Source of the DNA: Microcystis aeruginosa Ma_SC_T_19800800_S464
GTDB taxonomy: Bacteria > Cyanobacteriota > Cyanobacteriia > Cyanobacteriales > Microcystaceae
DNA: 53,861 nucleotides
Reading direction: 5' to 3'
Assembly (NCBI GenBank): GCA_007095785.1
Contig: SFBL01000111.1
Location: 1 to 53,861 of the forward strand
The position numbers and the translations under genes were made by a program. The notes under the pieces are model-generated. The model was not told where the DNA came from, did not search any database, and worked only from the letters and a program-made list of their open reading frames with translations. Shown here in pieces: positions 10,597 to 42,162 of the stretch; position 1 is the first letter of the stretch, and every line of letters begins with the position of its first letter.

Positions 10597-11874
10597 TTAC
10601 CCTTTTCTCAAACGTTCAACTAATTCAACCGCACAACCGATGCCACTTTCATGAAATCCGTAGGAATCAATGCCCCGTTTTTTGATGTGGAAATAAGTAC
10701 CTGAGAAGTAAATGGGGCCAGTTTCATTGAGTTGATAAATTTGTTTTTGGGCTTCTAGAGTATTCATGTCATAAGCTGGATGTCGATACTTAAGAATGCG
10801 GATAATTTTGTCTTCATCAATGGCGATGGGGGGGGTATCTAGAGAAACAAAATAATCTTTCTTAGCCGTAAAATTATGGACTTTGTTGGCATAATAAGTC
10901 ACATAAGTATAAAGCTTTCCTTCTTTGGTTAATTGCCCATAATTCCATGATTGCCATTTACTGCGATCTGGGTTCATAATAACCGGATCAGTGTGAACAG
11001 TGACGGCAGTTTCATTGTATTTAAAACAGCCTAATATTTGCTGTTCTAACTGGGTTGGTTCAGCTAGTATTCCTAATGCTTGATCAGCGTGAGTAGCCAT
11101 AACCACCTTATCATAAACTTCTTCATCTGTGGTCGTTTTTACCGTTACTTTTCCGTCTTCTCTTTTTTTAACGTAAATCACTTCTTGTTCAGTACGAATC
11201 GGTTTCTTTAAAGCATCTTTGACCCTTTCAACATAACGACTACTTCCTCCTTTTACGGTTTGCCATTCGACCGTTTTTCCCCCTAACCCTCCTTGGTCAT
11301 GGGTCATAAAGAAGCTGATGAAAGTTGAAGCAGGAAACTCCATCAATAAATCAGTAGGAATTGACCAAACGGCTGATCCCATCAACAAGACAAAGTTATC
11401 TCGAAAGGCTTGACTATAGTTATTTTTATCTAGATATTCTTGCATAGAAATTCTCGTTTTTCCTTCCCAGAAATCAGCCCGCGCTTCAGAGAAAAAGCGT
11501 TTAGCTTCTTGATAACAAGCTACTAATTCTGGAGGTTGTTGACGGGCAAATTCTTCCATCGGCAGCTCTAGATCTAGGGAATTAAACTGCATTCCAGTAT
11601 CTAAATTATAGAAATTAAAGCCACCTAAATGATCTTGAGTCTCTGCTCCTAAATCAGCAAAAAATTTCATCAAGTTGGGATAATTAGGTTTATTACAAAC
11701 CACAAAAGCCGTATCAAAAGAAATCCGTTGACCCTCCTCATCCAAATCTAAGGTGTGAGCATGACCGCCGACACGACTACTTTTTTCATAGACATCAACC
11801 TCATATTGATCTTGAAGATAATAGGCAATGGGTGTGCCAGAAATACCCGAACCAATGATTGCTAATTTTTCCAT
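10597..11874 (-). CDS. FAD/NAD(P)-binding oxidoreductase, COG2907-like
   Basis: This 425-residue flavoprotein begins with the Rossmann motif IIGSGISGTPIAYYL. The FAD-binding continuation VDVYEKSSRVGGHAHT follows, a pattern of the amine oxidase/phytoene desaturase superfamily. The FDTAFVVCNKPNYPNLMKFF block and MATHADQAL point to the COG2907 group, whose members often sit beside fatty-acid-modifying genes such as cyclopropane synthases. No reaction has been firmly set for the group. An AAGGA site lies 8 bases before the ATG. It is the last gene of the minus-strand cluster, 64 bases after the MFS gene. I infer it oxidises or desaturates the acyl product. Confidence 0.75.
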   Translation of the reverse strand: MEKLAIIGSGISGTPIAYYLQDQYEVDVYEKSSRVGGHAHTLDLDEEGQRISFDTAFVVCNKPNYPNLMKFFADLGAETQDHLGGFNFYNLDTGMQFNSLDLELPMEEFARQQPPELVACYQEAKRFFSEARADFWEGKTRISMQEYLDKNNYSQAFRDNFVLLMGSAVWSIPTDLLMEFPASTFISFFMTHDQGGLGGKTVEWQTVKGGSSRYVERVKDALKKPIRTEQEVIYVKKREDGKVTVKTTTDEEVYDKVVMATHADQALGILAEPTQLEQQILGCFKYNETAVTVHTDPVIMNPDRSKWQSWNYGQLTKEGKLYTYVTYYANKVHNFTAKKDYFVSLDTPPIAIDEDKIIRILKYRHPAYDMNTLEAQKQIYQLNETGPIYFSGTYFHIKKRGIDSYGFHESGIGCAVELVERLRKG

Positions 11875-11938
11875 AATTTTGTCCTTGAATAAATTGTGAA
11901 GGGGGTTAATTAGTGGGGTTAAAATTTAAGAAACTTTC

Positions 11939-13111
11939 CTAACTATTCTCCGAAGAATGTTGATAGTCAGGATGGGACTTTTGGGACTGACTTAAACTCA
12001 GCAAAAATAAGACAAAAATGACTAACATTAATGAGAAGATATACCGAGTTCCCATCATGGTCATGACAATAGCTGATAGAATGGGACCGGCGGTACAACC
12101 TGCACTATAAATTGAGGTAAAGACAGCACTCCCGGAGGATAATTCATTAAGGGTAACGGTAGAACCAATCAGGGCTAATGATAAGGGAAAAATGGGACTC
12201 ATTCCTACCCCAGAGACAAAAGCTAAAAAGGGGGTAATCATGGGATTTTCGATTAAAGATAAGCCAAAAACTGAAACAATAACAATAATTACACTACCGA
12301 CTAAAACCTTAACTGTCCCCATCTTATCGGCTAAATGAGTAATAGGAACGGTTGAAATTAATCCGCCTAAAATAAACAAGCCAAAGATTAACCCCATGCG
12401 CTCAATACCATAGTTTTGTTCGAGTAAAAAAAGTGGATAAAGAGAAACTAAGGTAGCAACACTGAAGCCATAAGCAAAAGCTCCTTGTAAGGGAAGTTTG
12501 AGCTTTTGAATAATGCTAAAATTGGGCTTTTGAAACTTAACCGTTTTTTCTGGTAAGCCAAAAAAGACAACAATAACGCCACTTAAAATTAAGCCACTTC
12601 CTAATAAAAAAGTGATCTTAGGAGAAAGATTATAGGCGACTGCTCCCATAATCGGACCGATACCAAAACCTAAGCTAAAAGCTAAAGCATCTAAACCATT
12701 AACCATGGCTCGATTTTGATCATTACAAAAATAGTTAATAGCGGTTTGTCCAGAAATCAGATATAAACAACAGGCCAAACCCATGACACCACGAATGATA
12801 AACCAAAGAGATAATTGAGTAGTAAAGGCAAATAGAGGTGCAGTTATTCCCATTAAAAGGAATCCTAACATCATGGTTTTTCTTAATCCAATTTGGCGAA
12901 GAATACTAGCCACAATCGGTGTTCCGGCGGCAATGACAAAAAAGTAAAGGGTAGAATTTGCCCCAATAACAATATTGTCGTAACCCTTTTCTTTCATCAG
13001 GGTAGAAATAAAGGGGTTAAATAACCCTAGGGAAATTCCCGATAAAAAGGCCACTAAATAAAGGGCGGGAAGTCCAACAGAAAAGGGAGAATTGGCATTT
13101 TTAGTCATCAT
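11939..13111 (-). CDS. MFS family transporter
   Basis: This is a 12-helix major facilitator of about 390 residues. Hydrophobic segments run throughout, and the loop between helices 2 and 3 carries RQIGLRKTMMLGF, an MFS motif-A-like element. A second half-repeat follows around THLADKMGTVKVLVG. The frame can start at a TTG (13129), but the adjacent ATG codons at 13111 and 13108 are more likely starts. The gene lies in the cluster between the enoyl reductase and the flavoprotein genes, only 35 bases downstream of the former's stop. A role in exporting the cluster product is the natural inference. No substrate-specific motif is visible. Confidence 0.82.
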   Translation of the reverse strand: MMTKNANSPFSVGLPALYLVAFLSGISLGLFNPFISTLMKEKGYDNIVIGANSTLYFFVIAAGTPIVASILRQIGLRKTMMLGFLLMGITAPLFAFTTQLSLWFIIRGVMGLACCLYLISGQTAINYFCNDQNRAMVNGLDALAFSLGFGIGPIMGAVAYNLSPKITFLLGSGLILSGVIVVFFGLPEKTVKFQKPNFSIIQKLKLPLQGAFAYGFSVATLVSLYPLFLLEQNYGIERMGLIFGLFILGGLISTVPITHLADKMGTVKVLVGSVIIVIVSVFGLSLIENPMITPFLAFVSGVGMSPIFPLSLALIGSTVTLNELSSGSAVFTSIYSAGCTAGPILSAIVMTMMGTRYIFSLMLVIFVLFLLSLSQSQKSHPDYQHSSENS

Positions 13112-13146
13112 GGGAAAATTCCAGCACAAAGTTCATAAGAGGGTTT

Positions 13147-14703
13147 TTAAAGGGGAGTGGGACGATAAAAATGATAGGGAGACGGAAGATTTACCCCCTG
13201 TAACTTCAGACTTTGCAGACGATAAAGATAAGCTGCACCGCGCATGATGTGCATAGCTACATCCACCACTTGACGATTTTCGGAAAATTCTAAATAAGTT
13301 CCTCGAACCCAATCATTAAATGAACCCATCGCCGGACCACACCAAATTTGATAATCCATGGTTCGTTGTGGCTGTCCACTGGTTGCCCAACGAGAAGAAA
13401 GCCCTAAATACCAGCGAAAAATTAAAGCCATTTTCCGTTTAGGATTATTATTCGCTCGTTCAATTTGTTCGGGATCTCGCTCTTGAAAATAAGCAAGGGT
13501 TTCTTGCCAAACGGCCTCTAATGGTTTTTGGAAAATTTGCTTTTCTATGGTTTGACGAACCTCGGTCGGAATGGCATCAATTCCCTCATAAGTTTGATAC
13601 AAATCATATAATTTTTGCGCACGCATGGGGAATAAACTTCCCCGTTTTAAGAGTTGAACTTTCACCCCCATTTCAAACATATCAGCACAAGGGGCCATTA
13701 CCACATCGGCCATTGCTGCTTGGGCTAATAATTGTTTGGTATGTTCAGATGTTCCCGCTTCAATACAAGCATGGTTGACTGAACCCGTCACAATGTAACT
13801 CGCTCCCATCATAAAGGCTGCTAAAGCTGATTCTGGTGTACTAATCCCACCGGCCGCCCCCACTCTAATAGAACGCTCATACTGATATTGCTGTTGAATC
13901 TCATTGCGTAAGGCAATAATAGAAGGGAGAAGGCAAACCAAAGAACGATTATCTGTGTGACCACCAGAGTCAGCTTCAACGGTTATGTCATCGGCTAAAG
14001 GAACTTTTTCAGCTAAAATTGCTTGTAAGGCTGTAATTTGTCCTTGTTCAACTAAAGCTTTCAGCAGTTTAGGAGGAGCAGGTTTTAAGAATTTCTGAGC
14101 AACTTCAGTCCGAGAAATTTTGGCAATGATCTTATTTTGGGTTTCAATATCGCCTTGAGAATTTAGATGTAATCCTGATGCTCGGTAACGGACAATATGG
14201 GGGGTTAAATCTAGGTAAGCAGAGGCTTCAACAGTTCTTACCCCATATTTGAGGTAAAGTTCCACTGAACCCCGTTCTAGGGCTTCCTCTGAGGGGCTAT
14301 GGATTAAATTGAAGGCATATCGTCTATTGGGTAAAGCTTCTTGAATGGTGTGAATGGCTTTTTCAACCCGTTGGGGAACTAACCCAGCTGCCCCAAAACT
14401 GGCTAAAAATCCGGCTTTTCCCAAAGAAATGACTAAATCTTCGGAAGCAATGCCCCCAGCCATTGCACCGGCTGCATAGGCATAGTCTAACCCATGAAAG
14501 TCACAAAAAGTGCGATCGCCTAATTGTTGGGGTGATAGGGCATTAATCATGCTATGGGGCAGTATATCAGCATTAGGTTCGTGAGAAAGCCCTATCTGGT
14601 TATTTTTCCCATATACATAACAAGGCTGCTCTAAATTAGCTAATTTTTCTCGAATTCCTTCACTATCAAAGGAGATAGACGTTGTAAGGGGAGTAGTAAG
14701 CAT
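13147..14703 (-). CDS. PfaD/HglA-like enoyl reductase (2-nitropropane dioxygenase family)
   Basis: This FMN-dependent TIM-barrel protein of 518 residues resembles the trans-acting enoyl reductases of PUFA synthases (PfaD) and heterocyst glycolipid synthases. It reduces enoyl-ACP intermediates during iterative chain building. Visible landmarks are LGKAGFLASFGAAGLVP, EADSGGHTDNRS and the phosphate-binding region RVGAAGGISTPESALAAFMM followed by GASYIVTGSVN. The C-terminal ~130 residues (RWYLGLSSRWATSGQPQRTM) are the extension that separates PfaD proteins from ordinary nitronate monooxygenases. It sits directly downstream of the dehydratase-bearing protein, the partner it would work with. Confidence 0.85.
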   Translation of the reverse strand: MLTTPLTTSISFDSEGIREKLANLEQPCYVYGKNNQIGLSHEPNADILPHSMINALSPQQLGDRTFCDFHGLDYAYAAGAMAGGIASEDLVISLGKAGFLASFGAAGLVPQRVEKAIHTIQEALPNRRYAFNLIHSPSEEALERGSVELYLKYGVRTVEASAYLDLTPHIVRYRASGLHLNSQGDIETQNKIIAKISRTEVAQKFLKPAPPKLLKALVEQGQITALQAILAEKVPLADDITVEADSGGHTDNRSLVCLLPSIIALRNEIQQQYQYERSIRVGAAGGISTPESALAAFMMGASYIVTGSVNHACIEAGTSEHTKQLLAQAAMADVVMAPCADMFEMGVKVQLLKRGSLFPMRAQKLYDLYQTYEGIDAIPTEVRQTIEKQIFQKPLEAVWQETLAYFQERDPEQIERANNNPKRKMALIFRWYLGLSSRWATSGQPQRTMDYQIWCGPAMGSFNDWVRGTYLEFSENRQVVDVAMHIMRGAAYLYRLQSLKLQGVNLPSPYHFYRPTPL

Positions 14704-14785
14704 GAGGTTTATTTCTCGATTATTGTTGACTTGAAACTGAGAGAAAGAGATGGGTGCTAACTGATAACTGTTTACTGTTTACTGT
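14704..14785. repeat. Heptamer tandem repeat TTTACTG between pfaD-like and DH genes
   Basis: The gap holds ACTGATAACTGTTTACTG followed by further TTTACTG units up to the stop of the large DH gene. It belongs to the same ACTGATAA/AACAGTAAACAGT family as 47900-47960 and 35140-35165. Confidence 0.6.
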
Positions 14786-17700
14786 TTACTGTTCACTGTC
14801 TAATAGACACAAGGCGATATCTTTAATTTCGTAAATTCTTAAGTCTTCTTTCCAAAGACTGGCATCTCCGATAATTGTGATTACATCATCTTCGACTCGA
14901 ATATCGGAAATATGCACTTCTAAAGACATTAAACGATTTTCGGGTGTAATTTGTCCTCGATATTTCCATGTAATTTGATGATTAATGGCTTGACCAAAGC
15001 GAGGATTTTTGAAAGATTTGCCTAAGTCTAATTGCAGCGCATAAGTTTGCATAGCTTGAAGAATAGACTCAACGCCTAATGCACCAGGCATCACCGGATC
15101 TTGATAGAAATGGAAGGAAAAATACCAATCTTCGGGAGTAATTGATTGGCTGGCATAAATATATCCTTTTTGATACTTACCCCCATCTTGAATTAAGAAA
15201 ACTTTTTCGATAAAATCAAGATAATTTTGAGAAAGACGATAGTGGGGTTTTTCAGGATTTACTGAATAGAAGTTTTCGTGAGTTAAGGAATCTCGTAAAT
15301 TAATTTCCTGTAGGGTTAAATCGGATAAATTATTCAGTTGATACCAAGGCTTAAGACGTTTTCCACCATCAAGTCCCACTTGATTCGCTAACACGGCTGT
15401 GCTAAAGTCTCCAAAGACCATATTTCCCCGATAAAAAGGCTCACCTTCACAAGATAATTCAAACTCAAACTTTTGAATAATTGCCCCTTGAATAGCGGTA
15501 GTAGAAAGGAGACGAACTTTATCCGTAATGGTTTTATTACGGAGGTCAATTTCTTTGAGAATTGTCCCCTGTCCATCTAAATTACGAAAATGAAGATCAT
15601 CTTCTGGGAATAATAAAGTTGCTCCCATATAAACCCCTAAGAAAATACAAGGTTGACCAGCAATTTCAATATAAGTACAGTAGGGCAAAGTGGGATAGGC
15701 ATTATGGTTATAAAACCAAGCATTTTCTTTGACATCAAATTCGGTAATGATTTGCGATGGTTTTTGCAATTCATGACGCTTACCTTCGATGTCTAATACC
15801 CGACTGACTAACTGAAACTCTCCGTTAGGTAAACGAACCGATTGACGATTTTCATAAATATCAAATTCTGATCCCAAACAGGCAGCAACTGATCCTTTAG
15901 CAAAGGTTTTTAATTGGTTTTCATTAAATAAAACTGATGACTGTTTTGATAATTGGGAAATATGGGGGAATGTTACTGACTCAATGGGTGGGAAAATACT
16001 GGGAATGGTAGCTGTTTTTTCTACCAGTTGAACACCAATATTTTTAATAGTAGCAATGGTTTTTCCGCCAAAAATAACATCCACATTAGCCAGAAGATAA
16101 GGTTGAGGAGAAAGTCCAATTTCTAACACCTCCATTTGATACATTAAAGTTCCATGTTGGGGAGTCACTTGTCCCCGAAAACGGGCTGCTTGGGTTTGAT
16201 TAGGAATCACCTGAAAACGAGCATCTTTCGTGTGAGTTTGTAACCCTAACCATAAACAATAAAATTGCACCAGTTGGATACTTCCTTCAATCATTAAATT
16301 CCCAGGTAAAGTGGGGTCATTTTTAAAATGACAAGAATAATACCAGTCCTCAGGGGTGATCTGTTTTGATCCCACTGCTAACCCTAGTCCAGCTATTCCT
16401 CCTTGAGGATTTACCATCATCACTTTCTCTAACATTAAGAGTTTTTCTGGGGGTAATCTGAGGGAAGAATTTAAGCCATTTTGTTGATAGGTTTTCCCTA
16501 AACAAGCCTCAATATTTCCTTGACTTAGATTAAGAAGTTCTTCTTTTTTAAAGAATGACTTAGAACAGGTTAAAAGAGGAGTAAACTGTTGTTTGTTAAT
16601 CAAGTTTCGTTCTTTTTCTTCAGCCTCTTTTAGCACAACTCCCTGTCCTTTTTCTAATTCTTCATCAGAAAAGAGTCCAGCACAACCGTCATGAAATTTC
16701 ATCCAAACTTGATCGCCAATTAACACCTCGCCTTGGAAGAAAATTAATAAGCTATCATCAGTTTTAACCGAAGATGTGATCTTAACTCGACACCTTAACA
16801 ACTTAACGTTTTCGGGTTGTTCAAATAAGAAGGTTGCCGATAAATCTAATAAACGGAAAGAGCGTTTTCCTTGATTTTCAAAATCTGTCCCGATATAACT
16901 TAATAGCATCAGGAGTCCGTGGCCAGCTTCTTTACAAATTCCCACCGTTAATTGACCATCTACTGCATACCAAGCATCTTCTGGTACGTCATATTCTGTT
17001 TCGATGAAACCTGATTTATAATCACCTAATTTTCCTTCTAATTGAGTCACCCGACTGACGAACAAAAAGGGAGGAGACGGCATTCTGACTCGTTGGGTAT
17101 AATGATCAATGGGTTCATATTCTTGACCAAAAACCTTAGAGACTTTACCTTCAATAAATTCGAGAATCTCCGGTTGATCAAATAAACAAGGTCTAACGGT
17201 TTTAGGATGAGAAGAAATAACGCTTGTTCTTAAATTATCAAGCGTAGAAATGGTTGGAACTTGGGAAAGAGTTTGAGTAGAAGAAGCGACTAAAGCAGCG
17301 ACTTTTTGAGAAGCCGTATTTTCTCGAATAATTGAATTTTGTTGCTCGGTTTGGGGTTCGATATTAGCTTTGGGTGCTGTGGTTAACACTGTCTTAAAAA
17401 TCGCCTCTAAGGTTTCTGCTTCATCTGTTAAATAAAGAGGGGATAAGTCTAGTTCTACCCCATGACTGACTAATTGTGCTAACATCTTAATAATGGTCGC
17501 TAAATCATCAGCACCTCGACGATTAATACACAATGCAAGATGCTCTTTTTGACCAAGAGTTTCCGATATCCAACGAGAACAACTTCCTCCTAATCCTAAT
17601 TCTAGAAAAATTTTCACCCCGTCTTGATAATTGCGTTCAATTAAGCGAGGAAAATCTAACATTTGACACATTCCTTGACTTAAATGATGAGCAATTTTCT

Positions 17701-19789
17701 CTTTTTCTAAGGTCAGAGAATCATAATGAGAAGAGGAATAAAACATAGTATCAGGTGGGGTTCCCATTGTCACCGTATTTAGCTTAAGAAACTCATTGTA
17801 TTCTGATTGCATAACTTCACAATGTAAAACCATATCAGAAGGCGAACGAAACCGATCACATTGTAATTTTTCAATCACCCGTAAACAACCTTGAGAATCT
17901 CCTGCGATCGCAACTTCTTGAGGGGTATTAATATGGGTTAAATAAACCTTACTTTCTGTTTTTAGACATTCCTGAACTGCTTCAGCTGTAGCCATTAAAA
18001 CATAACTACTCCATGAATTTTCATCGATCGGTTGACCCCAATATTCTGCAACGGCTTGTTTAGCTCCCATTAAACGGGTTTGAAATAGGGGAGAAGAATG
18101 AACAAATTGACTTCCTTGATTTGCATTTAGCCACACTCCTAATGAATACATCATGGTACTTTCTCCCATGCTATAACCGAAGGCAGCATCAGGTTTAATT
18201 TTAAAATATTTCTGCATAATTTCGGTGAATAAAACTGCAAAACCTGTTCCCGTTTCTAAAACAGATAAAGGGTTAGCAATGAATTGAGTTTCTAGGGTTT
18301 CTAAGTCTTGTTTAGAAAGGGAAAATTGACGGCGAGGATAAAGAGAGTTTGCTTGAAAAAAGGTAGCAGGATCACTAATTAAACTCTCTGCTCTCTCCCA
18401 TAATTTAGGGAATAATTGAAAAAGATTTCTTCCCATTCCTAAATAGGAGTTAAACGCACCAGGATAAACAAAAGCGACTTTACCCACTTTTCCTAACCGT
18501 TTAGGGGTAAAATAACTTCCTTGGGGACTTTTCCAAGGCTTTCCTGTATGAAAGGCTTTATCAATTCCTTTTTTAGCCTGTTTAATTTCCTTTTGCAAAG
18601 CTTCTTTGTTATTCCCAACAATTGCTACAACATAAGGAGATTGAGAATTCTGTTGAAACTGAATAAAATTCTCTTTCGCAAGATGGGGTAAGGAGAAACT
18701 GTTTTCAATACTCTGGGTTAAGTTATCAAGCTGACTTTGTAAAGACGAACTATCATTTCCAGCGAGGGGAAATAGATAAAATGACCCATAGGGTAAATAG
18801 CCATTATTGGGTGTACTTTGAGGAGTTGCTTCCGATAAAATTAAATGACTATAAGTATTGTTGTGAGTGACTAAATTAAGCGCAGCATAGCGTTTTTCTT
18901 GTCCTTTTTCAAGAAACCAAGGAAGTGATACATCAGGTAGATAAAAAGGACTATTTTGCCATTCTTGAGTAAGATTAGAAGTTAACAGTTGAGCGGCAGC
19001 AGGAAGATAACGATTTTTTAAGCAAAGTGCTGTTTTAATTAAGCTAATTAAATCTTCAGTTATCCCTAAGTTATTATTATTCTCTTGGACTATTCCGACT
19101 GCACAAGTTAGGTTATTATGATTAGCATAATAAGCTTCTAATAACCCTTGATCTATCTCTGTTGAGGAAACAGCTAAATAACCAATATCTGAGGGGTGAA
19201 TCTTAGCATTTTCAAATGCTTGCTGACAACTTTGTTTAATCGCAACTGATCGAGAAGATAAGGGGTTAACTATTTTACTAAAGCTATCAATAATCCCGTA
19301 AAAAAGCCTATTATTATTGTTTGGGATTGTTTCATAATCTTTGAGGATTAAAGCTCCGCCAATAATAGACTCACAATTCCTATTAAGCGCACTAATAATA
19401 ACTGTATCAACTTCTTTGGCAGTTAAGAGAATTTGGGCTAATTCTAGAGACTTTAATAAAGAATCCGATACTTTTGTTAATTGAAAAGTAATAATGGAAC
19501 AATTCCATAATCTTTCCAATTGATAACTAATATTTTTAATCTCATCTTCTTGATTGTTGCTAATATTATTAGCAACAATCAAGGCGACTTTTTTTCCTAT
19601 CTTACAATTACAATCTTTTAACCCTTGATCAGATATCTTTGATAGGATAGACCAAGAATGATCACTGTTCGGTTTGTTAGAATAATCAAGGGAGTTTCCT
19701 TGATAAATTAAAGCTGATAGTTGTTGACTGGTTAACAGTTGATTAAAGAAGCCACTTAAGCCAGCGATCGCTAATTTGGAAGGTTTCAT
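14786..19789 (-). CDS. PUFA-synthase-like protein: degenerate KS, AT, and two double-hotdog DH regions
   Basis: The 1,667-residue multidomain protein resembles a fusion of PfaB/HglC (AT) with the DH part of PfaC/HglD. Residues ~1-330 look ketosynthase/CLF-like but lack the active-site cysteine context. The AT (~430-770) has VAFVYPGAFNSYLGMGRN and the nucleophile motif GYSMGES. The rest (~880-1667) contains two FabA-type dehydratase regions, each made of two hotdog folds. The catalytic-type hotdogs carry HFKNDPTLPG and HFYQDPVMPG, with the His and the DPxxPG loop. These domains would transfer acyl groups and dehydrate 3-hydroxyacyl intermediates of the KS-AT-ACP protein. A good AGGAG ribosome site precedes the ATG by 6 bases. 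No ACP is present. Confidence 0.82.
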   Translation of the reverse strand: MKPSKLAIAGLSGFFNQLLTSQQLSALIYQGNSLDYSNKPNSDHSWSILSKISDQGLKDCNCKIGKKVALIVANNISNNQEDEIKNISYQLERLWNCSIITFQLTKVSDSLLKSLELAQILLTAKEVDTVIISALNRNCESIIGGALILKDYETIPNNNNRLFYGIIDSFSKIVNPLSSRSVAIKQSCQQAFENAKIHPSDIGYLAVSSTEIDQGLLEAYYANHNNLTCAVGIVQENNNNLGITEDLISLIKTALCLKNRYLPAAAQLLTSNLTQEWQNSPFYLPDVSLPWFLEKGQEKRYAALNLVTHNNTYSHLILSEATPQSTPNNGYLPYGSFYLFPLAGNDSSSLQSQLDNLTQSIENSFSLPHLAKENFIQFQQNSQSPYVVAIVGNNKEALQKEIKQAKKGIDKAFHTGKPWKSPQGSYFTPKRLGKVGKVAFVYPGAFNSYLGMGRNLFQLFPKLWERAESLISDPATFFQANSLYPRRQFSLSKQDLETLETQFIANPLSVLETGTGFAVLFTEIMQKYFKIKPDAAFGYSMGESTMMYSLGVWLNANQGSQFVHSSPLFQTRLMGAKQAVAEYWGQPIDENSWSSYVLMATAEAVQECLKTESKVYLTHINTPQEVAIAGDSQGCLRVIEKLQCDRFRSPSDMVLHCEVMQSEYNEFLKLNTVTMGTPPDTMFYSSSHYDSLTLEKEKIAHHLSQGMCQMLDFPRLIERNYQDGVKIFLELGLGGSCSRWISETLGQKEHLALCINRRGADDLATIIKMLAQLVSHGVELDLSPLYLTDEAETLEAIFKTVLTTAPKANIEPQTEQQNSIIRENTASQKVAALVASSTQTLSQVPTISTLDNLRTSVISSHPKTVRPCLFDQPEILEFIEGKVSKVFGQEYEPIDHYTQRVRMPSPPFLFVSRVTQLEGKLGDYKSGFIETEYDVPEDAWYAVDGQLTVGICKEAGHGLLMLLSYIGTDFENQGKRSFRLLDLSATFLFEQPENVKLLRCRVKITSSVKTDDSLLIFFQGEVLIGDQVWMKFHDGCAGLFSDEELEKGQGVVLKEAEEKERNLINKQQFTPLLTCSKSFFKKEELLNLSQGNIEACLGKTYQQNGLNSSLRLPPEKLLMLEKVMMVNPQGGIAGLGLAVGSKQITPEDWYYSCHFKNDPTLPGNLMIEGSIQLVQFYCLWLGLQTHTKDARFQVIPNQTQAARFRGQVTPQHGTLMYQMEVLEIGLSPQPYLLANVDVIFGGKTIATIKNIGVQLVEKTATIPSIFPPIESVTFPHISQLSKQSSVLFNENQLKTFAKGSVAACLGSEFDIYENRQSVRLPNGEFQLVSRVLDIEGKRHELQKPSQIITEFDVKENAWFYNHNAYPTLPYCTYIEIAGQPCIFLGVYMGATLLFPEDDLHFRNLDGQGTILKEIDLRNKTITDKVRLLSTTAIQGAIIQKFEFELSCEGEPFYRGNMVFGDFSTAVLANQVGLDGGKRLKPWYQLNNLSDLTLQEINLRDSLTHENFYSVNPEKPHYRLSQNYLDFIEKVFLIQDGGKYQKGYIYASQSITPEDWYFSFHFYQDPVMPGALGVESILQAMQTYALQLDLGKSFKNPRFGQAINHQITWKYRGQITPENRLMSLEVHISDIRVEDDVITIIGDASLWKEDLRIYEIKDIALCLLDSEQ

Positions 19790-21769: not shown

Positions 21770-22489
21770 CTAATTACTGCTCAAAGAAGCTAATTCACAA
21801 GTCAAAGTCATTCGACCTTTTGGGGTATAACCCACCTCTTGAATTAAGCTATTAGGATCATGCAATTCAGCTAAAACAATTTGAGCCGTTGTCATTTCAT
21901 CTAAGTCGGGACTAATATCTAGAGCGCGACAGAAGACCGATTCCCACTCTAGATTTAAGGTTTTCGTTAAGCCAAATAAACCGCCACTAATAGGGCTAAA
22001 TTCTCGTTTTCCACTGAGACCAAATTCTCCATCTAAACGGGTTAAGCTGAGAAAACAACTGCGTCCTTGACTGGCCGCTTGCGTCAGAGAAGATTTAAGA
22101 TGTTTGGCTAGTAAAAACACTTGTTTAACAATCGCTTGATCAGGATTAATTGAAGTCTCTTGATCTTGATTAAACCCCTGATGTAGAGGATGTAAATGAA
22201 TAAATGTGCCGATCAGTCCACAAGTTTTAAATATATCTCCCAATTGTGATTGTAAATGTTCTTCACTTAAATGATTGAGAACAAAATGTCGAACCCCCGC
22301 AGGAAGAGAAGAACAGGCAGGAATAAGGAATTGAGGGAAACTGAGAACCACAACTTGCCAGCCTTGGTTTAGCAAACTTTGAGCAACTTGGGCAGTAGTA
22401 GATGAACCATCATCGGTCACCAAACAGGTTTGATCAGGGGTTGAGGGAAAATCCCAATAATCAGGTGCAGCAAGGGGCTTCAGTTTCAT
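21770..22489 (-). CDS. PfaA-type KR structural subdomain, stand-alone
   Basis: This 239-residue protein resembles the N-terminal, non-catalytic Rossmann half of the PfaA KR. It begins PDYWDFPSTPDQTCLVTDDG, has a helix-strand pattern (AQSLLNQGWQVVVLSFP), and includes the late FGLTKTLNLEWESVFCRALD with a DISPDLD segment. This second block is the 'KR core' pairing region seen before the catalytic KR in PUFA synthases. It lacks the full cofactor motif and the catalytic Tyr, so it is presumably needed to complete the KR encoded next downstream. It starts 56 bases after the KS-AT-ACP stop. Assignment is by domain order and local similarity. Confidence 0.65.
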   Translation of the reverse strand: MKLKPLAAPDYWDFPSTPDQTCLVTDDGSSTTAQVAQSLLNQGWQVVVLSFPQFLIPACSSLPAGVRHFVLNHLSEEHLQSQLGDIFKTCGLIGTFIHLHPLHQGFNQDQETSINPDQAIVKQVFLLAKHLKSSLTQAASQGRSCFLSLTRLDGEFGLSGKREFSPISGGLFGLTKTLNLEWESVFCRALDISPDLDEMTTAQIVLAELHDPNSLIQEVGYTPKGRMTLTCELASLSSN

Positions 22490-34965: not shown

Positions 34966-35025
34966 GATGTTAAAATGCTCCTTAGATATTAGGTGTGAGG
35001 TGTTAGTTATTCGGATAACTGATAA

Positions 35026-35144
35026 GTAGGTAGGCACAATTATTTGTAGGATGGGTTAGCGGTAGCGTAACCCATGCGGGCGTTGGGTTTCATGCTTCAA
35101 CCCAACCTACGTTCATTTTATATTTAATTCCACCCACCTACTTA
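35026..35144 (-). repeat. 118-bp dispersed repeat R1, copy 1
   Basis: Copies occur here (inverted) and at 45081-45198 and 48006-48124. The ends are TAGG(T/G)AGGCACAATTATTTGT and the complement of AAGTGGGTGGGTGGAATTAA. The middle has two internal palindromes: GTAGGTTGGGTT with AACCCAACCTAC, and GGGTTAGCGGTAGCGTAACCC. It is non-coding, MITE-like, and would fold strongly if transcribed. Here it separates the two modular PKS genes. Confidence 0.8.
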
Positions 35145-35162
35145 ACTGATAACTGTTCACTG

Positions 35163-38100
35163 TTAAAGTAATGCTTCTAATTCCGCCAATTCCTGTTCCA
35201 TCAAAGCTTCTGTTTCTGCTTCTGAAAGTGACTCCAATTCAGCAAGGGCTTGGTTGAGTACTACAACATCCGTTGACTCGGTTTCCGAAGAAATCTGAGA
35301 ATTTTCTGAATTATCTTCCCAAGCAAATACTTCTTGGACAAAATACTGCACCACATCACCAATAGTGGGATACTCAAAAGCAAAGGTAGAAGGTAAAGAG
35401 ACAGAAAATAAGCCTTCTAGACGATGTTTCAGTTCTACGGACATTAAAGAATCCATTCCCATCTCAAAGAACCCTTTATCAGTATCTGGTAAAGTATCTC
35501 CGTGAATTCCTAAGACTTGCGCTACTTCTTGCTGTAAACGAGTGGTTAATAGGGTGACTCGTCGGTGAGGAGGGGTTTTTTGGATGGTTTGGGGGAAATT
35601 CTCGACCGTTTGCACAAAATTATCCTGATCTTGCTTGAATAACGCTTCTAAGAAAGCCACCCGTCCTTTTGCTGCAACAATCGTTTTAAACTTAGACCAA
35701 TCAATCTCTGCTACCATTGTTTGAGTAACATTACCATTGATTAGAGCATCTAAAGTATCTAGGGCTAAATTAGGTTGTAATGGATTGATTCCCAGGCGTT
35801 TTAAGCCTTCTTCATAGCCTTGCGTGGCCATTCCCCCTTTAGCCCAAGGTCCCCAGTTAATGCTTAACCCTGTGAGTCCAGACTCTCGACGGTAGTGCAT
35901 TAAACCATCTAAGAAATGGTTGGCAGCAGCATAGTGAATTTGACCTCGTGATCCGATTAAAGCAGACATGGAAGAGAAACAAACAAAGAAATCTAAGGAT
36001 AAATCTTGAGAAAGTTGGTGTAAATTCCACGCTCCTGCTGCTTTAGGATTAAATACGCTCTCAAAACAATGGAAATCCATCTTGTCAATGGTGCGATCGC
36101 TCAAAACCCCTGCTGCGTGAATAATACCCTGTAAGGGAGGACAATTTTCTTGAATTTGGTGAAAAAGTTGACGGGTTTGTTGATGATCACTGACATCAGC
36201 GGCAATTACTTGAATAGTAGCCCCTTTATCCTCTAAAGCTTTGATTTTTACCTGTTTATCCGTTGAATGGTCAGCTAAGGCTCGCCGACTGGTTAAGATT
36301 AAATGATTTGCACCTTTTTCAATTAACCAATCTGCTAAACTTAATCCTAAAGAGCCTAAGCCACCAGTAATAAGATAACTGGCTTCTGTCTTCTTAAAAT
36401 TGATGTTTGAGCTTTTTATTGCTTTATTAGGTACTAAACGGGCAACATATCGTTGATGATCCCGAAAAGCGATGCGATCTTCTCCTAGATTTTCTGTTAT
36501 TTCAGCAATAATTGCTTGAGACGATGGTTGTTTTTCTTCTAAATCAATCAATCCTCCCCATAAATTGGGATATTCAAGGGCAATAACTTGACCCATTCCC
36601 CATAAGGACGTTTGCGCTATTTTAAGCGGTTTAACAGCATCATTCACCGGTTGTGCTTGTTGTGTTATGACCCAAAGTTTAGGGGGTTCTTTAGTTTTAC
36701 ATTGAGCTAAAGCTTGTGTTAGATACAATAAACTGGCATAAGAACGAGTTTGAGAGGTTTGGGAGTTAATATCGCTGTCTAACCCCCATAAATAGACCAC
36801 TTTGGTGATTGGTTCAGTTATATCTTGTAACAACCGTTGAAAATCCTTAACATTATTAGGATTAATTTGATAATGACCTGACACCAACTTCTGATAAGTT
36901 TGACCAGAAGACACCAAAATATAAGCATCATTTAGCGTTGTTGCTAAGGCTTTACCAACTCCTTGATTATCATTAAAAATCAACCACTTTTCTCCTTGAG
37001 AAGGCTTATTTTTTAAGTTTAAAGGACTGAGTTGCCATTCCACTTTGTAACAGTTTTTACTAACATCCTGTAGGATAGGCATCTTGCCTGCTATTATTGC
37101 ATCTTCTCCAACCAATAACTGTAATAATTGGGGTAAAAATTGTTTGACTTCAGGTGATAATTGATCACTTTGATTTAACTGTTCAGTTAGTTGTTTAGTT
37201 TTGCCTTCAACTAATAAATTAAGTAAACTAGAAGCAGACGAAACTGACTTAAATTGAGGTTTAGCATCACTTACCCAATAAGATTCATGTTGCCAAGGAT
37301 AAAGCGGTAACTTAACAAACTGACAATTTTCGGGATATAATTTTTCCCAATTAATCGACTGTCCCCAAGTGTAGAGCTTTCCTAAAGAATTTAATAGTGT
37401 TCCCCGTTCAGAATGTTCTCGTCTTAGAGAGGGTAAAACAACTCCCTCAGTATCTTGTTCTCGTAAGGTACTTTTAATATATCCCAATAAAACAGGATGG
37501 GGGCTGATTTCAACAAAGATAGTATGACGAGATTTAATCATTGCTTCAATCGCAGGGTTAAAACGTACCGTCTGACGCATATTTTGTCCCCAATAAGCGG
37601 CATTAAATAATGTCCCCTCTTGTTGATCACCTGTTACGGTTGAGAAAATTGGTATGGTGCTTTTTTGAGGCTGAAGCTCTCCTAATTTTTTCACTAACTT
37701 ATCCGCAAAAGTCGTCATTTGTTGACTATGAAAAGCATAATTAACAGGGAGTTCTTTGGAGAAAATATGAGGATGGTTTTGGGACAATTCAGCAATTAAT
37801 TGATCGATCGATTGAGACTCCCCAGATACAACCGTTGAATAGGGACTATTAATGGCAGCAATTTCTAATTTATTTTCCCAAGCAGCTATCAAATTTTCTA
37901 CCTCATTAACAGGTAATTCAATCGCAAGCATTTTTCCATTTCCTGTTGCTTGTTGCATCAATTGTCCGCGCTGACAAATCAAATGAATGGCTTCCTCAAG
38001 AGTTAGAATTCCCGCAAAATGGGCTGCTGCAACTTCTCCCAAGCTGTGACCAACCACAGATTTAGGATTAATCCCCCAAGATTGCCATAATTTAGCTAAT

Positions 38101-39896
38101 CCAACTTGTAAAGCAAATAAAGCAGGTTGAGAAACTTCTGTTTCTTGTAAACGAGATTGAGCTTCAGACGCATTAAATTCCGCTAATAATGACCAGTTAG
38201 CATACTTTTGAATCAAAGTATCACATTGTTTAATAACAGAGCGAAAAACGGGTTCTGTTGCTAATAATTCCCGTCCCATTGCCCACCATTGAGGTCCTTG
38301 GCCAGAAAAGACAAAAGCAATGTTTGTTTTACGTTTTGAAGGCTTAGATTGAGTCGATAAATCAATCGTTTCTAACTCTTTTAAACCCTTCAATAATTCT
38401 TCAGGAGAATGAACCAGAACTGCCTGACGATGAGCATGATGAGTCCGTCTTAAACTAGCACTATAGCAAAGATTCTGGACAAATTCAGCGGTTAAAGCTT
38501 GATCTTTCAGGAAATCTTCATAATTTTGAGCTAAATCTCTAACCGCTTCTTGACTATGGGCAGATAAAGGAAGTAAATGAGGGAAAGTTAAGGCAATTGG
38601 TTCTTGGTGAGATAAATTAGCTTCTTCCAAGATAAGATGAGCGTTTGTTCCCGAAAATCCAAAAGAACTAATTCCCACCTTGGCGGATGTTTCCTGTTGT
38701 GGCCAGGTAATTAAAGATGATTGAAGCTTAAGGGGTAACTTATCAAAGGGAATATAAGGATTCGGCTTGTTAAAATGCAGACTGGGCGGAATTTGCTTGT
38801 TTTTCAGGGAGAGTGCCATCTTAATCACACTGGCAATTCCTGCCGCTGCTTCGAGATGTCCTATATTACTTTTTACCGATCCCACCAAACAAGGATTATC
38901 CTTGTCTCGTCCTTCTTCTAACACAGATCCCAAGGCTATCGCTTCGATGGGATCGCCTAAAGATGTTCCAGTCCCGTGCAATTCCACATAATTAAGCTCT
39001 TTTGGCTCAATTTCTGCATTTTTCAAGGCTGATCGAACCAAGCTTTCTTGTGCTGGTCCATAAGGAACCGTTAACCCCTTACTGCGTCCATCATGATTAA
39101 TAGCAGTTCCCCTAATCAACGCATAAATGGAATCATTGTCTGCGATCGCTTGAGCCAACGGTTTGAGAATAATACAACCGACTCCCTCACTTCGCACATA
39201 TCCATTGGCACTTTCATCAAAGGTTTTGCAACGTCCATCAGGAGACAAGGCTTTCAATTTGCTTAACGCAATATTACCAATAGGGGATAAAATCAGGTTA
39301 ACCCCTGCTGCGATCGCCATTGAAGACTCATCATTCCATAAACTTTGACAAGCGAGATGCACTGCGACCAAAGAGGAAGAACAAGCCGTATCTACCGCTA
39401 AACTAGGACCTTTTAAGTTAAAAAGATAGGAAAGACGACCGGCTGCGATATTTGTGCAGTTTCCTGTTAAATCATAGCCTTGGGGATGGTGGCTATATCC
39501 TGCATGGATGCGACTATAATCGTTTGTGGCAATTCCCACAAATACACCTGTTTTCGATCCTGCCAATTGTTCCCGTGTTATTCCTGCATCTTCAATGGTT
39601 TCCCATGCGACTTCTAGGAGTAAGCGTTGCTGAGGGTCCATTAATACGGCTTCTCTGGGGGAAATTCCGAAAAAATTAGCATCAAACCCATCAACTTGCG
39701 ATAAAAATCCCCCATAACGAGAATTCATTTTCCCCTGTGTTTCAGGATTCTCATCATAATATTCATTAATATTCCAGCGCTCCTTAGGAATTTCGGTGAT
39801 TCCATCTTTTCCTTGGGATAATAATTGCCAGAATTCATGAGGATTATTGGCTTGAGGAAAACGACAGCCAATCCCAATAATTGCAATAGGTTTCAT
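35163..39896 (-). CDS. Type I PKS module: KS-AT-KR-ACP
   Basis: This 1,577-residue protein carries one elongation and ketoreduction module. The KS has C172 in DTACSSSLVA, ELHGTGTSLGD and KSNIGHLEAAAG. The AT has FSGQGPQWWAMGRE, GHSLGEVAA and YAFHS, most consistent with malonyl-CoA. The KR (~1170-1370) has TGGLGSLGLSLA and the catalytic set SSMSALIG...HYAAANHF. The ACP has FFEMGMDSLMSVEL. The tail (ALAELESLSEAETEALMEQE) is a typical C-terminal docking helix, and the next protein in the operon starts with a matching N-terminal coil. This suggests direct hand-off. The KS begins at residue 1 with no docking segment, so the chain probably arrives from the free ACP. A region of unknown role (~880-1000) lies between AT and KR. 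Confidence 0.88.
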   Translation of the reverse strand: MKPIAIIGIGCRFPQANNPHEFWQLLSQGKDGITEIPKERWNINEYYDENPETQGKMNSRYGGFLSQVDGFDANFFGISPREAVLMDPQQRLLLEVAWETIEDAGITREQLAGSKTGVFVGIATNDYSRIHAGYSHHPQGYDLTGNCTNIAAGRLSYLFNLKGPSLAVDTACSSSLVAVHLACQSLWNDESSMAIAAGVNLILSPIGNIALSKLKALSPDGRCKTFDESANGYVRSEGVGCIILKPLAQAIADNDSIYALIRGTAINHDGRSKGLTVPYGPAQESLVRSALKNAEIEPKELNYVELHGTGTSLGDPIEAIALGSVLEEGRDKDNPCLVGSVKSNIGHLEAAAGIASVIKMALSLKNKQIPPSLHFNKPNPYIPFDKLPLKLQSSLITWPQQETSAKVGISSFGFSGTNAHLILEEANLSHQEPIALTFPHLLPLSAHSQEAVRDLAQNYEDFLKDQALTAEFVQNLCYSASLRRTHHAHRQAVLVHSPEELLKGLKELETIDLSTQSKPSKRKTNIAFVFSGQGPQWWAMGRELLATEPVFRSVIKQCDTLIQKYANWSLLAEFNASEAQSRLQETEVSQPALFALQVGLAKLWQSWGINPKSVVGHSLGEVAAAHFAGILTLEEAIHLICQRGQLMQQATGNGKMLAIELPVNEVENLIAAWENKLEIAAINSPYSTVVSGESQSIDQLIAELSQNHPHIFSKELPVNYAFHSQQMTTFADKLVKKLGELQPQKSTIPIFSTVTGDQQEGTLFNAAYWGQNMRQTVRFNPAIEAMIKSRHTIFVEISPHPVLLGYIKSTLREQDTEGVVLPSLRREHSERGTLLNSLGKLYTWGQSINWEKLYPENCQFVKLPLYPWQHESYWVSDAKPQFKSVSSASSLLNLLVEGKTKQLTEQLNQSDQLSPEVKQFLPQLLQLLVGEDAIIAGKMPILQDVSKNCYKVEWQLSPLNLKNKPSQGEKWLIFNDNQGVGKALATTLNDAYILVSSGQTYQKLVSGHYQINPNNVKDFQRLLQDITEPITKVVYLWGLDSDINSQTSQTRSYASLLYLTQALAQCKTKEPPKLWVITQQAQPVNDAVKPLKIAQTSLWGMGQVIALEYPNLWGGLIDLEEKQPSSQAIIAEITENLGEDRIAFRDHQRYVARLVPNKAIKSSNINFKKTEASYLITGGLGSLGLSLADWLIEKGANHLILTSRRALADHSTDKQVKIKALEDKGATIQVIAADVSDHQQTRQLFHQIQENCPPLQGIIHAAGVLSDRTIDKMDFHCFESVFNPKAAGAWNLHQLSQDLSLDFFVCFSSMSALIGSRGQIHYAAANHFLDGLMHYRRESGLTGLSINWGPWAKGGMATQGYEEGLKRLGINPLQPNLALDTLDALINGNVTQTMVAEIDWSKFKTIVAAKGRVAFLEALFKQDQDNFVQTVENFPQTIQKTPPHRRVTLLTTRLQQEVAQVLGIHGDTLPDTDKGFFEMGMDSLMSVELKHRLEGLFSVSLPSTFAFEYPTIGDVVQYFVQEVFAWEDNSENSQISSETESTDVVVLNQALAELESLSEAETEALMEQELAELEALL

Positions 39897-40039
39897 AGTT
39901 TAGAGACTCCGTAATTAATAAACAGCAATTTACTTAAATAGAGAAACAAAATAATTCCCTTAAATGAGTAGGGTGAGCAAAAATCTTGATAAGTGAATCG
40001 TTATGATTTAATTTCACCCCCCCAATTCCGTATGTTTAA
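39897..40039. other. Short gap between halogenase and PKS genes
   Basis: This AT-rich 143-bp spacer has no gene. A CGGAGT ribosome site lies about 11 bases before the PKS ATG. I see no clear terminator here, so the genes are plausibly co-transcribed. Confidence 0.4.
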
Positions 40040-41836
40040 CTACACATTAACAGGAACTTTCTCAGGTGATTTTGCGACGCTTTCCGTTACCCAAGTATTC
40101 AGTTGAGGTCGATAACGATAGTTGGTAAATTCTTGGCGAGTCAGTTCAATTTGACTATTATCAGGAATCCCTTTAGTAAAATGTTTATAAAACATTTCGC
40201 CGATCATTGCTTGCAGCATATGAACAAAATGTTCGGCCAAATAGTAAAGATTTTTCCCATTTAAAAAGCCACGCCACCCAAAACCTTTCCAGAGAAATTT
40301 AGCATACCAAATTGCCGTGTAGAAATTTGTCCATTTCATAGATGCAAAGACATTAGACCGTTTGGGTTCAAGTTTGGTATTTTCGACAAAGTTATCAAAA
40401 TGTTTAAGAGTATGATAATCTCTCCAAAGTTGATCTCCTCGATAACAATCCATGAAACCTAAATTTTTCCCTTGTTTAATGACTTCATTAAATTGCTGAT
40501 AAAGATGTTCACAATACCCTGTTTGATGTTCTTTTAAGCCAAGGGTATATCGTGCTAGAAAATCCAAGTCTAGAAACCATTTTCCTGTGTACATAGGAAC
40601 TTGGACACCAAACCACCAAATATAATCATGATAGATCCGCCAACTCATAATACTGGCATTTCCTAACTGTTTATCATGATGTTTGATTAGATGGTTATTA
40701 AACCGCGTGTAAGTTAGGATAAAATCATTGTACGCCGCTTGTTTTTTCTCGCCAATAGCTTCTCCTACTAATTTACTGCGAATAATTTCTGTGGTACATT
40801 CAATTTGATAGGAAATCATGCTAGAACCCAAAGAATAAAAAGGATCAAAAATACAAGCTGCATCTCCAATTACATACCAATTATCGGCTGAAAACATGGT
40901 TTTGCTTGTATGAGAAGGTCGCGGTAAATAATGGAAATCAATATTTTCACCACTATTAACTAAACGATAAAGAATTTCATGATTGGCTTTTAAGAAATCA
41001 TAAAATTTCTCTTTTGTGTTAATTTGATGATCAGCGATCGCTGAACGATGATAAGCAATGCCAATGGAAATTTCTTGACTATCCTTCTCGGTAGGAATCA
41101 TCCATAACCAATGACCATGACCGAACCAATGATTGGTTGCATAGTAATGGCTACAAGTTGTACCATAAGGATCATAACCATCGTGAAAAATGGTGCGATC
41201 AATATTGTTAACTCTGACCCAAACAGAACCGGTATCAAGTCCAAAAAGATTATCTGCTCCAAATAGGAGATTATCGGTTTTTTTACCAATAATAAACTTA
41301 CGTCCTGCGGCATCAATAACGTGCTTTGCTTTGAGAGTTATCTGTTCATTTTCGACTTTAGCGATAACGGTTTTGAGTTCATCTTTTGAGGTTAAATCAA
41401 CATCTACAACTCGACCTTGATAAAAAGTTGCTCCCATCGCTTTATTCATTTTTAGGAGATCCCGTTCAAATCTTGCCCGGTTCATTTGAAAGGAAGCCAA
41501 AGGCGGTTGACGATTATTCCAAATATGATAATAATCATCAGTAGTGGTCGTTTTTTCCTTCTTTTTCGGCCAATGGAAGTTTAGTCCAAATTTGGGAGGA
41601 TGATTTTCGATCATATACTCATATAGTCCCAATTCTTTGCAGACAAATAAGGTGGCAATTTCCACCATTGATTCGCCAATTTTGAGGTCTTTATTAGTTC
41701 TTTCTTCTGGACGAGGATCGATCAGTGCAATTTTAATGTTGGGAACATTTAGAAGTAAGTGTCTTGCTTGACAGACCCCAGCAAAACCTGCTCCCATAAT
41801 CACAACATCATACTCATTAGTGTTAGTAGCAACCAT
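40040..41836 (-). CDS. Flavin-dependent halogenase
   Basis: This FAD enzyme of 598 residues probably chlorinates or brominates a substrate through hypohalous acid. It has the Rossmann motif GAGFAG at 15-20, the halogenase signature WxWxIP as HWLWMIPTEKD, and GES at 54-56. Lysine K82 in HPPKFGLNFHW aligns with the catalytic lysine of tryptophan-type halogenases (PrnA K79 context). A DPFYSLGSS segment resembles the DP-F/L-x-S-x-G loop of the family. WxWxIP separates it from simple monooxygenases. It has a strong AGGAG site and lies between the free ACP and the first PKS, so an ACP-bound acyl substrate is likely. NADH-flavin reductase would come from elsewhere. The exact substrate is unknown. 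Confidence 0.82.
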   Translation of the reverse strand: MVATNTNEYDVVIMGAGFAGVCQARHLLLNVPNIKIALIDPRPEERTNKDLKIGESMVEIATLFVCKELGLYEYMIENHPPKFGLNFHWPKKKEKTTTTDDYYHIWNNRQPPLASFQMNRARFERDLLKMNKAMGATFYQGRVVDVDLTSKDELKTVIAKVENEQITLKAKHVIDAAGRKFIIGKKTDNLLFGADNLFGLDTGSVWVRVNNIDRTIFHDGYDPYGTTCSHYYATNHWFGHGHWLWMIPTEKDSQEISIGIAYHRSAIADHQINTKEKFYDFLKANHEILYRLVNSGENIDFHYLPRPSHTSKTMFSADNWYVIGDAACIFDPFYSLGSSMISYQIECTTEIIRSKLVGEAIGEKKQAAYNDFILTYTRFNNHLIKHHDKQLGNASIMSWRIYHDYIWWFGVQVPMYTGKWFLDLDFLARYTLGLKEHQTGYCEHLYQQFNEVIKQGKNLGFMDCYRGDQLWRDYHTLKHFDNFVENTKLEPKRSNVFASMKWTNFYTAIWYAKFLWKGFGWRGFLNGKNLYYLAEHFVHMLQAMIGEMFYKHFTKGIPDNSQIELTRQEFTNYRYRPQLNTWVTESVAKSPEKVPVNV

Positions 41837-41898
41837 TGTTCAAATTCTCCTAAAATGTGATGAGGAATAGAGTGAATGAGAAAGAATACAAGAAAAAG

Positions 41899-42162
41899 TT
41901 AAAGATATAATTCCCCTAATCGGGTTGCTAATTCAGCAATGGTGGGATAGTTAAAAATGACCACAGGATTTAATTCCTTTCCGAGCCATTTTTCTAAGCG
42001 TCCTAATAAAACTAACGCTTTTCGTGAGTCGAGTTCATAATTATCAAAAGGTTCTTCAATATCAATGTCATCAAGGTCAACATCGAGTTGTTGAGCAAAC
42101 TGATCAACGAGCCAGTTTTGAATGTCTTCAACGGTACAAGGAGATTGAACAGTTGTCATCAT
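41899..42162 (-). CDS. Free-standing acyl/peptidyl carrier protein
   Basis: This 87-residue carrier protein would receive a phosphopantetheine arm at S46 in NYELDSRKALVLLG. The predicted four-helix pattern (VEDIQNWLVDQFAQQ, then RKALVLLGRLEKWLG, then PTIAELATRLGELYL) and the acidic loop DLDDIDIEEPFDNY fit ACPs. It is the first gene of the minus-strand cluster, 62 bases ahead of the halogenase. I infer it holds the starter or the halogenation substrate, or accepts serine from the carrier-less A domain. An AAGGAA site lies about 9 bases before the first of two adjacent ATGs. Confidence 0.85.
   Translation of the reverse strand: MMTTVQSPCTVEDIQNWLVDQFAQQLDVDLDDIDIEEPFDNYELDSRKALVLLGRLEKWLGKELNPVVIFNYPTIAELATRLGELYL

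Follow-up and report, generated by a model that had tools for sequence, protein, structure and literature searches.

A halogenase-bearing polyketide-serine line beside a PUFA synthase-like gene set in Microcystis aeruginosa, with the lipid as its most likely starter

Gene content of the cluster

The DNA examined here (the window) is one entire contig (C15, 53,861 bases) of the 4.77 Mb genome of Microcystis aeruginosa Ma_SC_T_19800800_S464, labelled G000, and it carries a gene cluster in which a modular polyketide synthase (PKS) and nonribosomal peptide synthetase (NRPS) line stands next to a gene set resembling a polyunsaturated fatty acid (PUFA) synthase. Positions 10597-42162 are filled by twelve open reading frames (ORFs), all on the minus strand, just where the original prediction had put twelve genes. 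According to Pfam and NCBIfam profiles, their order of transcription is a free acyl carrier protein (ACP); a flavin halogenase; KS-AT-KR-ACP; KS-AT-ACP-C-ACP; a protein with an adenylation (A) domain and a condensation-superfamily domain (the A protein); a PfaA-like KS-AT-ACP; a 239-aa protein; KR-DH; AT with two FabA-type DH domains; PfaD; an MFS protein; and an FAD oxidoreductase.

The modular line begins with the free ACP (41899-42162, minus strand), the probable entry point of an acyl chain as judged from ligase-ACP or PfaD-ACP neighborhoods in relatives, and continues with the halogenase (40040-41836), the KS-AT-KR-ACP PKS (35163-39896), the PKS-NRPS protein KS-AT-ACP-C-ACP, which has no KR (30142-35037), and the A protein (27000-29924), all on the same strand. 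Both PKS assignments rest on Pfam/NCBIfam profiles and motifs, and the profiles agree with the modular line up to the A protein as first predicted.

The profiles also bear out a PfaA/B/C/D-like set, with two corrections to its earlier description: pfaB and pfaC are fused and lack CLF, and the 239-aa gene is the middle of PfaA. In the profile search, TIGR02813 was matched in three consecutive minus-strand genes, i.e. pfaA is split. The first encodes the PfaA-like KS-AT-ACP protein with a single ACP (22546-26385; 1418 bits), the second the 239-aa protein (21770-22489; profile positions 1756-1977, E 2.2e-33), and the third the KR-DH protein, the C-terminal part of PfaA (19835-21601; profile positions 1991-2582, with YSLAN and HxxxGxxxxP motifs). 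Since the 239-aa protein matches the region directly ahead of that matched by the next gene, it probably represents the structural KR half. The fused PfaBC (14786-19789, minus strand) contains a KS remnant, an AT (GYSMGE), and two FabA-type DH domains, as identified by Pfam/NCBIfam profiles and motifs; the remnant gives a weak KS score (82 bits in the copy of another Microcystis genome, G011, which is 96% identical), and no CLF was found in the Pfam/NCBIfam scan. A PfaD-like enoyl reductase (13147-14703, minus strand; TIGR02814, 679 bits) completes the set.

In a pattern search, each of the three KS domains, the AT domains, and the two KR domains showed its expected motif, as did the dehydratase of 19835-21601, the halogenase, and three of the five ACPs; in the remaining two ACPs the active serine was recognized by eye. 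With these motifs present, the cluster looks functional, and it probably yields a single product.

Linkage of the two halves and exchange of the starter genes

A scan of named genomes with the terminal domain of the A protein yielded 29 loci, and 31 A-protein contigs were compared in all, the window included. Thirteen of these 31 also contain PUFA genes: G000, G296 (the G011 cluster), G297 (the remnant of the G004 cluster), G298, G299, G300-G304, G309, G317, and G106. Three gene orders occur among them, namely the modular line followed by the PUFA genes (window, G011, G299), the PUFA genes followed by the modular line (G300-G304, G317, G106), and a divergent arrangement (G298, G309). That the linkage outlasts such changes of order speaks for a common function. 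In a quick tree of the 31 A proteins, the PUFA and ligase rows are one change apart, and the PUFA rows fall within a clade of 14 (SH-aLRT 99, without bootstrap, with a weak root and long branches flagged) that comprises 13 PUFA-labelled contigs, one of them labelled by analogy, and one contig that could not be assigned. The joint use of the two halves, which had at first been proposed on co-orientation and shared transport and regulation, thus gains from their shared contigs, the three gene orders, and the single clade. It is very improbable that two adjoining clusters with separate products lie here; PUFA-like sets with other partners (G061, G084, G277) and modular relatives lacking PUFA genes do exist and speak for that explanation, but it has to contend with 13 linked contigs in three gene orders and with A proteins that fall in one clade.

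What precedes the first KS differs between the two kinds of cluster. Twelve of the 13 PUFA contigs could be read from the ACP to the A protein (G297 has no ACP on its contig); all twelve have the ACP, and the sole AMP-binding match in that interval is the A domain, with no ligase. In six of them (G300-G304, G317) the genes run in one direction as PfaA to PfaD, ACP, and PKS, such that PfaD directly precedes the ACP. By comparison, in 11 of the 31 contigs PUFA genes are lacking and the first KS is immediately preceded by an acyl ligase. In six of these the ligase is a relative of fatty-acyl-AMP ligases (FAAL; G033, G037, G306, G312, G314, and, with 31-32% identity, G320), and in the other five it is another AMP-binding ligase fused to an ACP (G307, G308, G318, G305:C57, G310:C60). 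An ACP lies between ligase and KS in 10 of the 11, none being found by BLAST in G320; in G312, where the ligase match contains two stops, the genes from the ligase to the first KS, ACP included, are oriented against the A protein. This exchange of ligase for PUFA genes beside the ACP is, like the gene content and the linkage, a direct observation. It is most simply read as the PUFA synthase providing a starter that comes from a ligase in the other clusters, and the gene arrangements suggest the lipid as the most likely starter. Joining of the lipid at a late stage had been considered as a first choice and was set aside given these ligase/ACP neighborhoods.

The A protein and its altered terminal domain

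Profiles, specificity code, and fold together describe the A protein as a serine-type adenylation domain followed by a terminal domain resembling epimerization (E) domains; a domain scan of 27000-29924 found no carrier domain. The specificity code is DIWH[IV]SLID in 30 of the 31 A proteins, which is serine-type by the reference code and code positions that we take to apply here, and the serine specificity first proposed therefore holds. The A-protein relatives L108 (a Desulfobacterales metagenome-assembled genome, MAG) and L109 (Luteimonas) were also recorded, and the specificity code of L108 differs; the secreted partner described below was found in neither genome.

The accompanying proposal of a stand-alone A-C protein is correct in its A part only, because the second domain is E-related: its best sequence matches and its best fold matches are E domains (TycA, TycB3, GrsA, PvdL, BacC), which rules out an ordinary C domain at this end. 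The structure model was built from an alignment of 31 sequences (pLDDT 86.3) and replaces a 5-sequence model (pLDDT 59.7). In epimerases, the His of HHxxxD and the Glu of EGHGRE are catalytic. The terminal domain has the profile likeness and the fold of an E domain but only half of this pair; HHxxxD is kept, and the Glu of the EGHGRE motif is Arg in all 31 A proteins. Compared with NRPS E domains, then, fold and HHxxxD are common to both, whereas here the Glu is replaced, the domain is the last one, and the same protein has no carrier. The identical terminal domain type is kept in clusters without PUFA genes.

The sequence and fold matches would also suit a working epimerase that gives D-serine, followed by hydrolysis or by release through an enzyme encoded elsewhere, and proteins resembling type II thioesterases were noticed by eye beside several relatives. 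Against this, the Arg is invariant and the scanned window proteins yielded no thioesterase; we judge it an unlikely explanation, a little more so than late lipid joining, which is weighed below.

No KR was found between the last KS and the C domain in any of the 23 loci, out of 29, in which both are visible, although the search model was built from one KR and its relatives and a very divergent KR could escape it. Without a KR before the serine step, the intermediate should be a beta-ketoacyl-serine thioester. Such thioesters are the usual precursors of tetramic acids, and release as a tetramate is possible. As a member of a family that handles alpha-deprotonation of carrier-bound groups, the terminal domain could perform the ring closure. 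We put forward only tentatively, with the odds against it, the more specific idea that a retooled E domain (His kept, Glu to Arg) frees a beta-ketoacyl-serine as a tetramic acid, with a ligase-derived acid or a PUFA chain as the starter and the product tied to the secreted PEP-CTERM-like protein described below. Among the literature matches listed, there was no precedent for tetramate release by E or C domains and nothing closer on cyanobacterial serine tetramates.

The halogenase varies among PUFA-type clusters

PltA acts on a carrier-bound substrate, and its lysine is functionally relevant. The FAD-dependent halogenase of the window has PltA as its best PDB relative and shares the features of halogenases with carrier-bound substrates: GxGxxG, WxWxIP (here WLWMIP), and the PltA lysine, the last located by eye in the alignment. 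A halogenase lies between the ACP and the first PKS in four of the 12 PUFA clusters read there (G000, G011, G298, G309) and is absent from that position in the other eight (G299-G304, G317, G106); in G106, the only halogenase relative (28%) belongs to its further PKS set. The presence of the gene in Crocosphaera (G298) and in G309 rules out a Microcystis-only halogenase.

Between G000 and G011, the other core proteins are 96-99% identical, compared with 76% for the halogenase, and DNA identity is ~69-85% across the halogenase gene. In the halogenase tree, the G011 copy (L025, G011:C8:30689-32485) groups with that of Crocosphaera G298 (support 1.000), not with that of G000. Either a swap or differential loss from an ancestral tandem pair would explain this difference. 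For NIES-843 and Chao 1910, PMC13291983 reports one or two halogenase genes, which suits differential loss. For a halogenase combined with PUFA genes, nothing closer appeared among the literature matches listed.

Remoter halogenase relatives (50-64%) are mostly present as 2-3 tandem copies in different clusters of other Microcystis and other genera (L039, L034, L038, L035, L037). Two of these loci were examined by domain (L038/L039, in G001 and G223), where the halogenases follow an iterative synthase with ACP, KR, and DH; L038 also has an RPE65-like protein. Tandem halogenases behind an iterative synthase hint that the family acts on iteratively made chains.

Flanking genes and the secreted partner

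Relatives show that the system is wider than the twelve genes and spans about 8.6-51.3 kb. Around the twelve are two proteins with signal-like starts, a regulator of PAS-AraC type, a conserved small protein, one more secreted protein, and an HlyD-RND pump. At the downstream end, two mutually related proteins of 255 and 250 aa with signal-like starts (8648-10396, minus strand) have relatives in the clusters of G106, G299, G309, G317, and G298; the 250-aa protein has a PEP-CTERM tail (TIGR02595, 18.2 bits, cut-off 16), and the 255-aa protein has no TIGR02595 match. The last two of the twelve genes encode an FAD-dependent oxidoreductase of the amine-oxidase superfamily (10597-11874, minus strand), which Pfam/NCBIfam and its relatives mark as a probable tailoring enzyme (identity 86% in G299 and G298, 73% in G106, 69% in G317, 66-67% in G301 and G304), and a predicted MFS exporter (11939-13129, minus strand), which accompanies PUFA-type and ligase-type clusters alike. 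Upstream of the ACP lie a conserved small protein of 172 aa (42448-42966, plus strand; 95% in G011), which by eye resembles a 182-aa protein of G033, the PAS-AraC regulator (43061-44014, minus strand), whose relatives adjoin the clusters in G033, G299, G298, G309, and G317, and an HlyD-type adaptor with an AcrB-type RND pump (46352-51280, plus strand), whose relatives adjoin the clusters of G106 and G299. An IS605-type OrfB/TnpB gene is located in the cluster flank at 4435-5769.

The other secreted protein (45331-46296, plus strand) is predicted to be PEP-CTERM-like; its start is signal-like, its tail falls short of the curated cut-offs, and many of its relatives have VPEPS-type tails. It had no Pfam or NCBIfam match above the curated cut-offs and no PDB relative at E up to 1. 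At 1e-20, it was found in seven of the 291 genomes of the order, six of which are precisely those with the A protein at 1e-150; in the seventh (G269), an A-protein end lies at the edge of the same contig. The protein therefore occurs in 7/7 genomes with the A protein and 0/284 without it (Fisher p 3e-14, kinship ignored), bearing in mind that the A protein was scored at 1e-150 and that fragments like that of G269 could escape in other genomes. Among 25 named genomes that have the A protein, a set partly overlapping the 291-genome draw, 22 contained it at 1e-10. As it occurs in PUFA-type and ligase-type clusters alike, it follows the serine end and not the lipid, and the co-occurrence with the A protein offers a handle on the role of the product outside the cell. 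Regarding a PEP-CTERM protein beside such clusters, nothing closer was among the literature matches listed.

Distribution

Within Microcystis, the whole cluster was present in two of the 12 genomes (G000-G011), namely G000 and G011. The loci of G004 and G008 are decayed or rearranged copies of the cluster, and the other eight genomes had no PfaBC match at 1e-60. Across the 291 genomes of the order, 51 had a PfaBC match at 1e-60, mostly over only the first ~850 residues. At L077-L078 (G277:C60), a PUFA-like set and a second KS stand beside several A-domain genes, which is another PUFA-NRPS combination. The occurrence of the two halves apart in most strains, which the original prediction had counted against itself, gave a mixed picture: PUFA-less relatives exist, but these form a separate clade with an acyl ligase, and G004 and G008 have partial loci.

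Proposed pathway and competing explanations

The reading that we prefer, with a probability of roughly 55%, is one machine with one product, in which a PUFA-type chain would come first via the free ACP, followed by polyketide extension, with serine added last and release by the E-like domain. The PUFA synthase-like iterative enzyme (KS-AT-ACP, split KR-DH, AT-DH-DH, ER) would make a long acyl chain, which would pass to the free ACP as the starter of the modular line and be modified there by the halogenase. The first PKS would then add two carbons and reduce to the hydroxyl, and the second would add two more and leave the ketone. The separate A protein would load serine onto the last carrier, the C domain would couple the beta-ketoacyl chain to it, and the E-like terminal domain would work on the acyl-serine thioester, probably to release it, perhaps as a tetramic acid. 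The MFS and RND pumps would export the product, with the secreted PEP-CTERM-like protein as a regular extracellular partner. Within this scheme, we infer the substrate transfer, the halogenation site, the release chemistry, the export, and the product.

The most serious competitor is a route like that of zeamine, in which a halogenated polyketide-serine thioester would be made in parallel and transferred by the E-like domain, acting as a stand-alone condensation domain, to an amine or hydroxyl of the PUFA-derived chain. Zeamine biosynthesis joins peptide-polyketide thioesters to a lipid at the end, as described in PMC13291983, and a terminal domain with HHxxxD and no carrier after it would be compatible with this. 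So would the gene order in the window, G011, and G299, where the A protein is directly followed by pfaA. Still, the same terminal domain is retained in clusters without PUFA genes, in these PUFA-less clusters an acyl ligase precedes the first KS, where the 12 PUFA clusters read there have none, and the window proteins scanned gave neither an aminotransferase nor a thioester reductase. We therefore consider late joining unlikely, and the original suggestion of a polyketide joined through serine to a lipid is less likely than the lipid first and serine last.

Several points do weigh against a lipid-first line. Seven of the 31 contigs could not be assigned to either arrangement (G305:C220, G310:C15, G311, G313, G315, G316, G319); in G316, the 1.75 kb upstream of the first KS contains neither ligase nor ACP, and in G319 (Desulfobacterales) a weak ligase match lies within the line and not at its start. 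G106 has a ligase ~24 kb beyond the A protein, beside further PKS genes, with its nearest FAAL match ~274 kb off, and no more than 44 candidates per genome were scored in the search for FAALs. The PKS architectures of the ligase clusters differ, and the PUFA genes of the window, G011, and G299 adjoin the A protein far from the ACP, which fits late joining too. G004 (L033, L080) retains the PUFA half and an A-protein fragment with a rearranged end and rearranged pump genes. In G008 (L068-L070), where the modular half is missing along with most of PfaA, there remain the KR-DH end, PfaBC, PfaD, the MFS protein, the oxidoreductase, and a single PEP-CTERM-type protein. Further, an SDR-like domain behind the E-like domain in G033, L093, and L099 might reduce the ketone, and the secreted partner was not found at 1e-10 in G298 (a Crocosphaera MAG) or in the non-cyanobacterial G319 and G320.

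Comparison with known systems

The cluster is real, and its kind is already in print without a product. It had been called unrecognised, and this description has to be withdrawn, as does any notion of a new kind of cluster: PMC13291983 (2026) includes the type, with a Microcystis version carrying one or two halogenase genes, as uncharacterised. That source describes clade II PKS-NRPS-PUFA triple hybrid clusters of cyanobacteria with a split pfaA, a Rossmann protein between its parts, and a fused pfaBC without CLF, together with two PKS modules and one NRPS module and, in Microcystis, a halogenase in place of a third PKS module. The window agrees in having PKS, NRPS, and PUFA-like genes within 20 kb, a split pfaA, a fused pfaBC with AT and DH/I and without CLF, no PfaB KS, two PKS modules, one NRPS module, and a halogenase. 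The Rossmann protein is of unknown function according to PMC13291983, whereas here the same gene matches the PfaA region directly ahead of the KR. The clade II text is silent on an E-like last domain, on sister clusters of the ligase type, on a secreted partner, and on an RND pump, and for clade II it leaves unnamed Crocosphaera, Vasconcelosia, and a Moorena-like genome, from which we also recovered clusters of this type. What the present comparison adds is the swap of starter, the alteration in the E-like terminal domain, the retention of the ketone, the secreted partner protein, and the switch of halogenase.

An orphan cluster, MIC1, was described in 2013 with NIES-843 as the reference (PMC3741299); its NRPS and PKS genes lie side by side and are accompanied by RND efflux transporters over 37.2-39.6 kb. 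The window likewise has neighboring NRPS and PKS genes with RND transporters, and MIC1 is probably the same cluster type. In the open-licence literature searched, PMC13291983 and PMC3741299 included, no assigned product appeared. For this cluster of a bloom-forming genus, our comparison predicts what the product should look like: lipid first, ketone kept, serine last, the halogen on the lipid side, and release by an altered epimerase domain.

Among systems with products, those of zeamine and fabclavine share the combination of PUFA-like, PKS, and NRPS genes, as outlined in PMC13291983, and in Dickeya RND transporter genes are adjacent. The aminotransferase, the thioester reductase, and the joining of the lipid at the end are their own. 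Chitinimine, in the account that PMC13291983 gives of it, differs in its four NRPS modules, its C-terminal TE, and its KS-CLF, with no halogenase mentioned, but it is there that a PUFA-like synthase is proposed to pass its chain straight to the first KS of a PKS-NRPS line, as we propose for the cluster described here.

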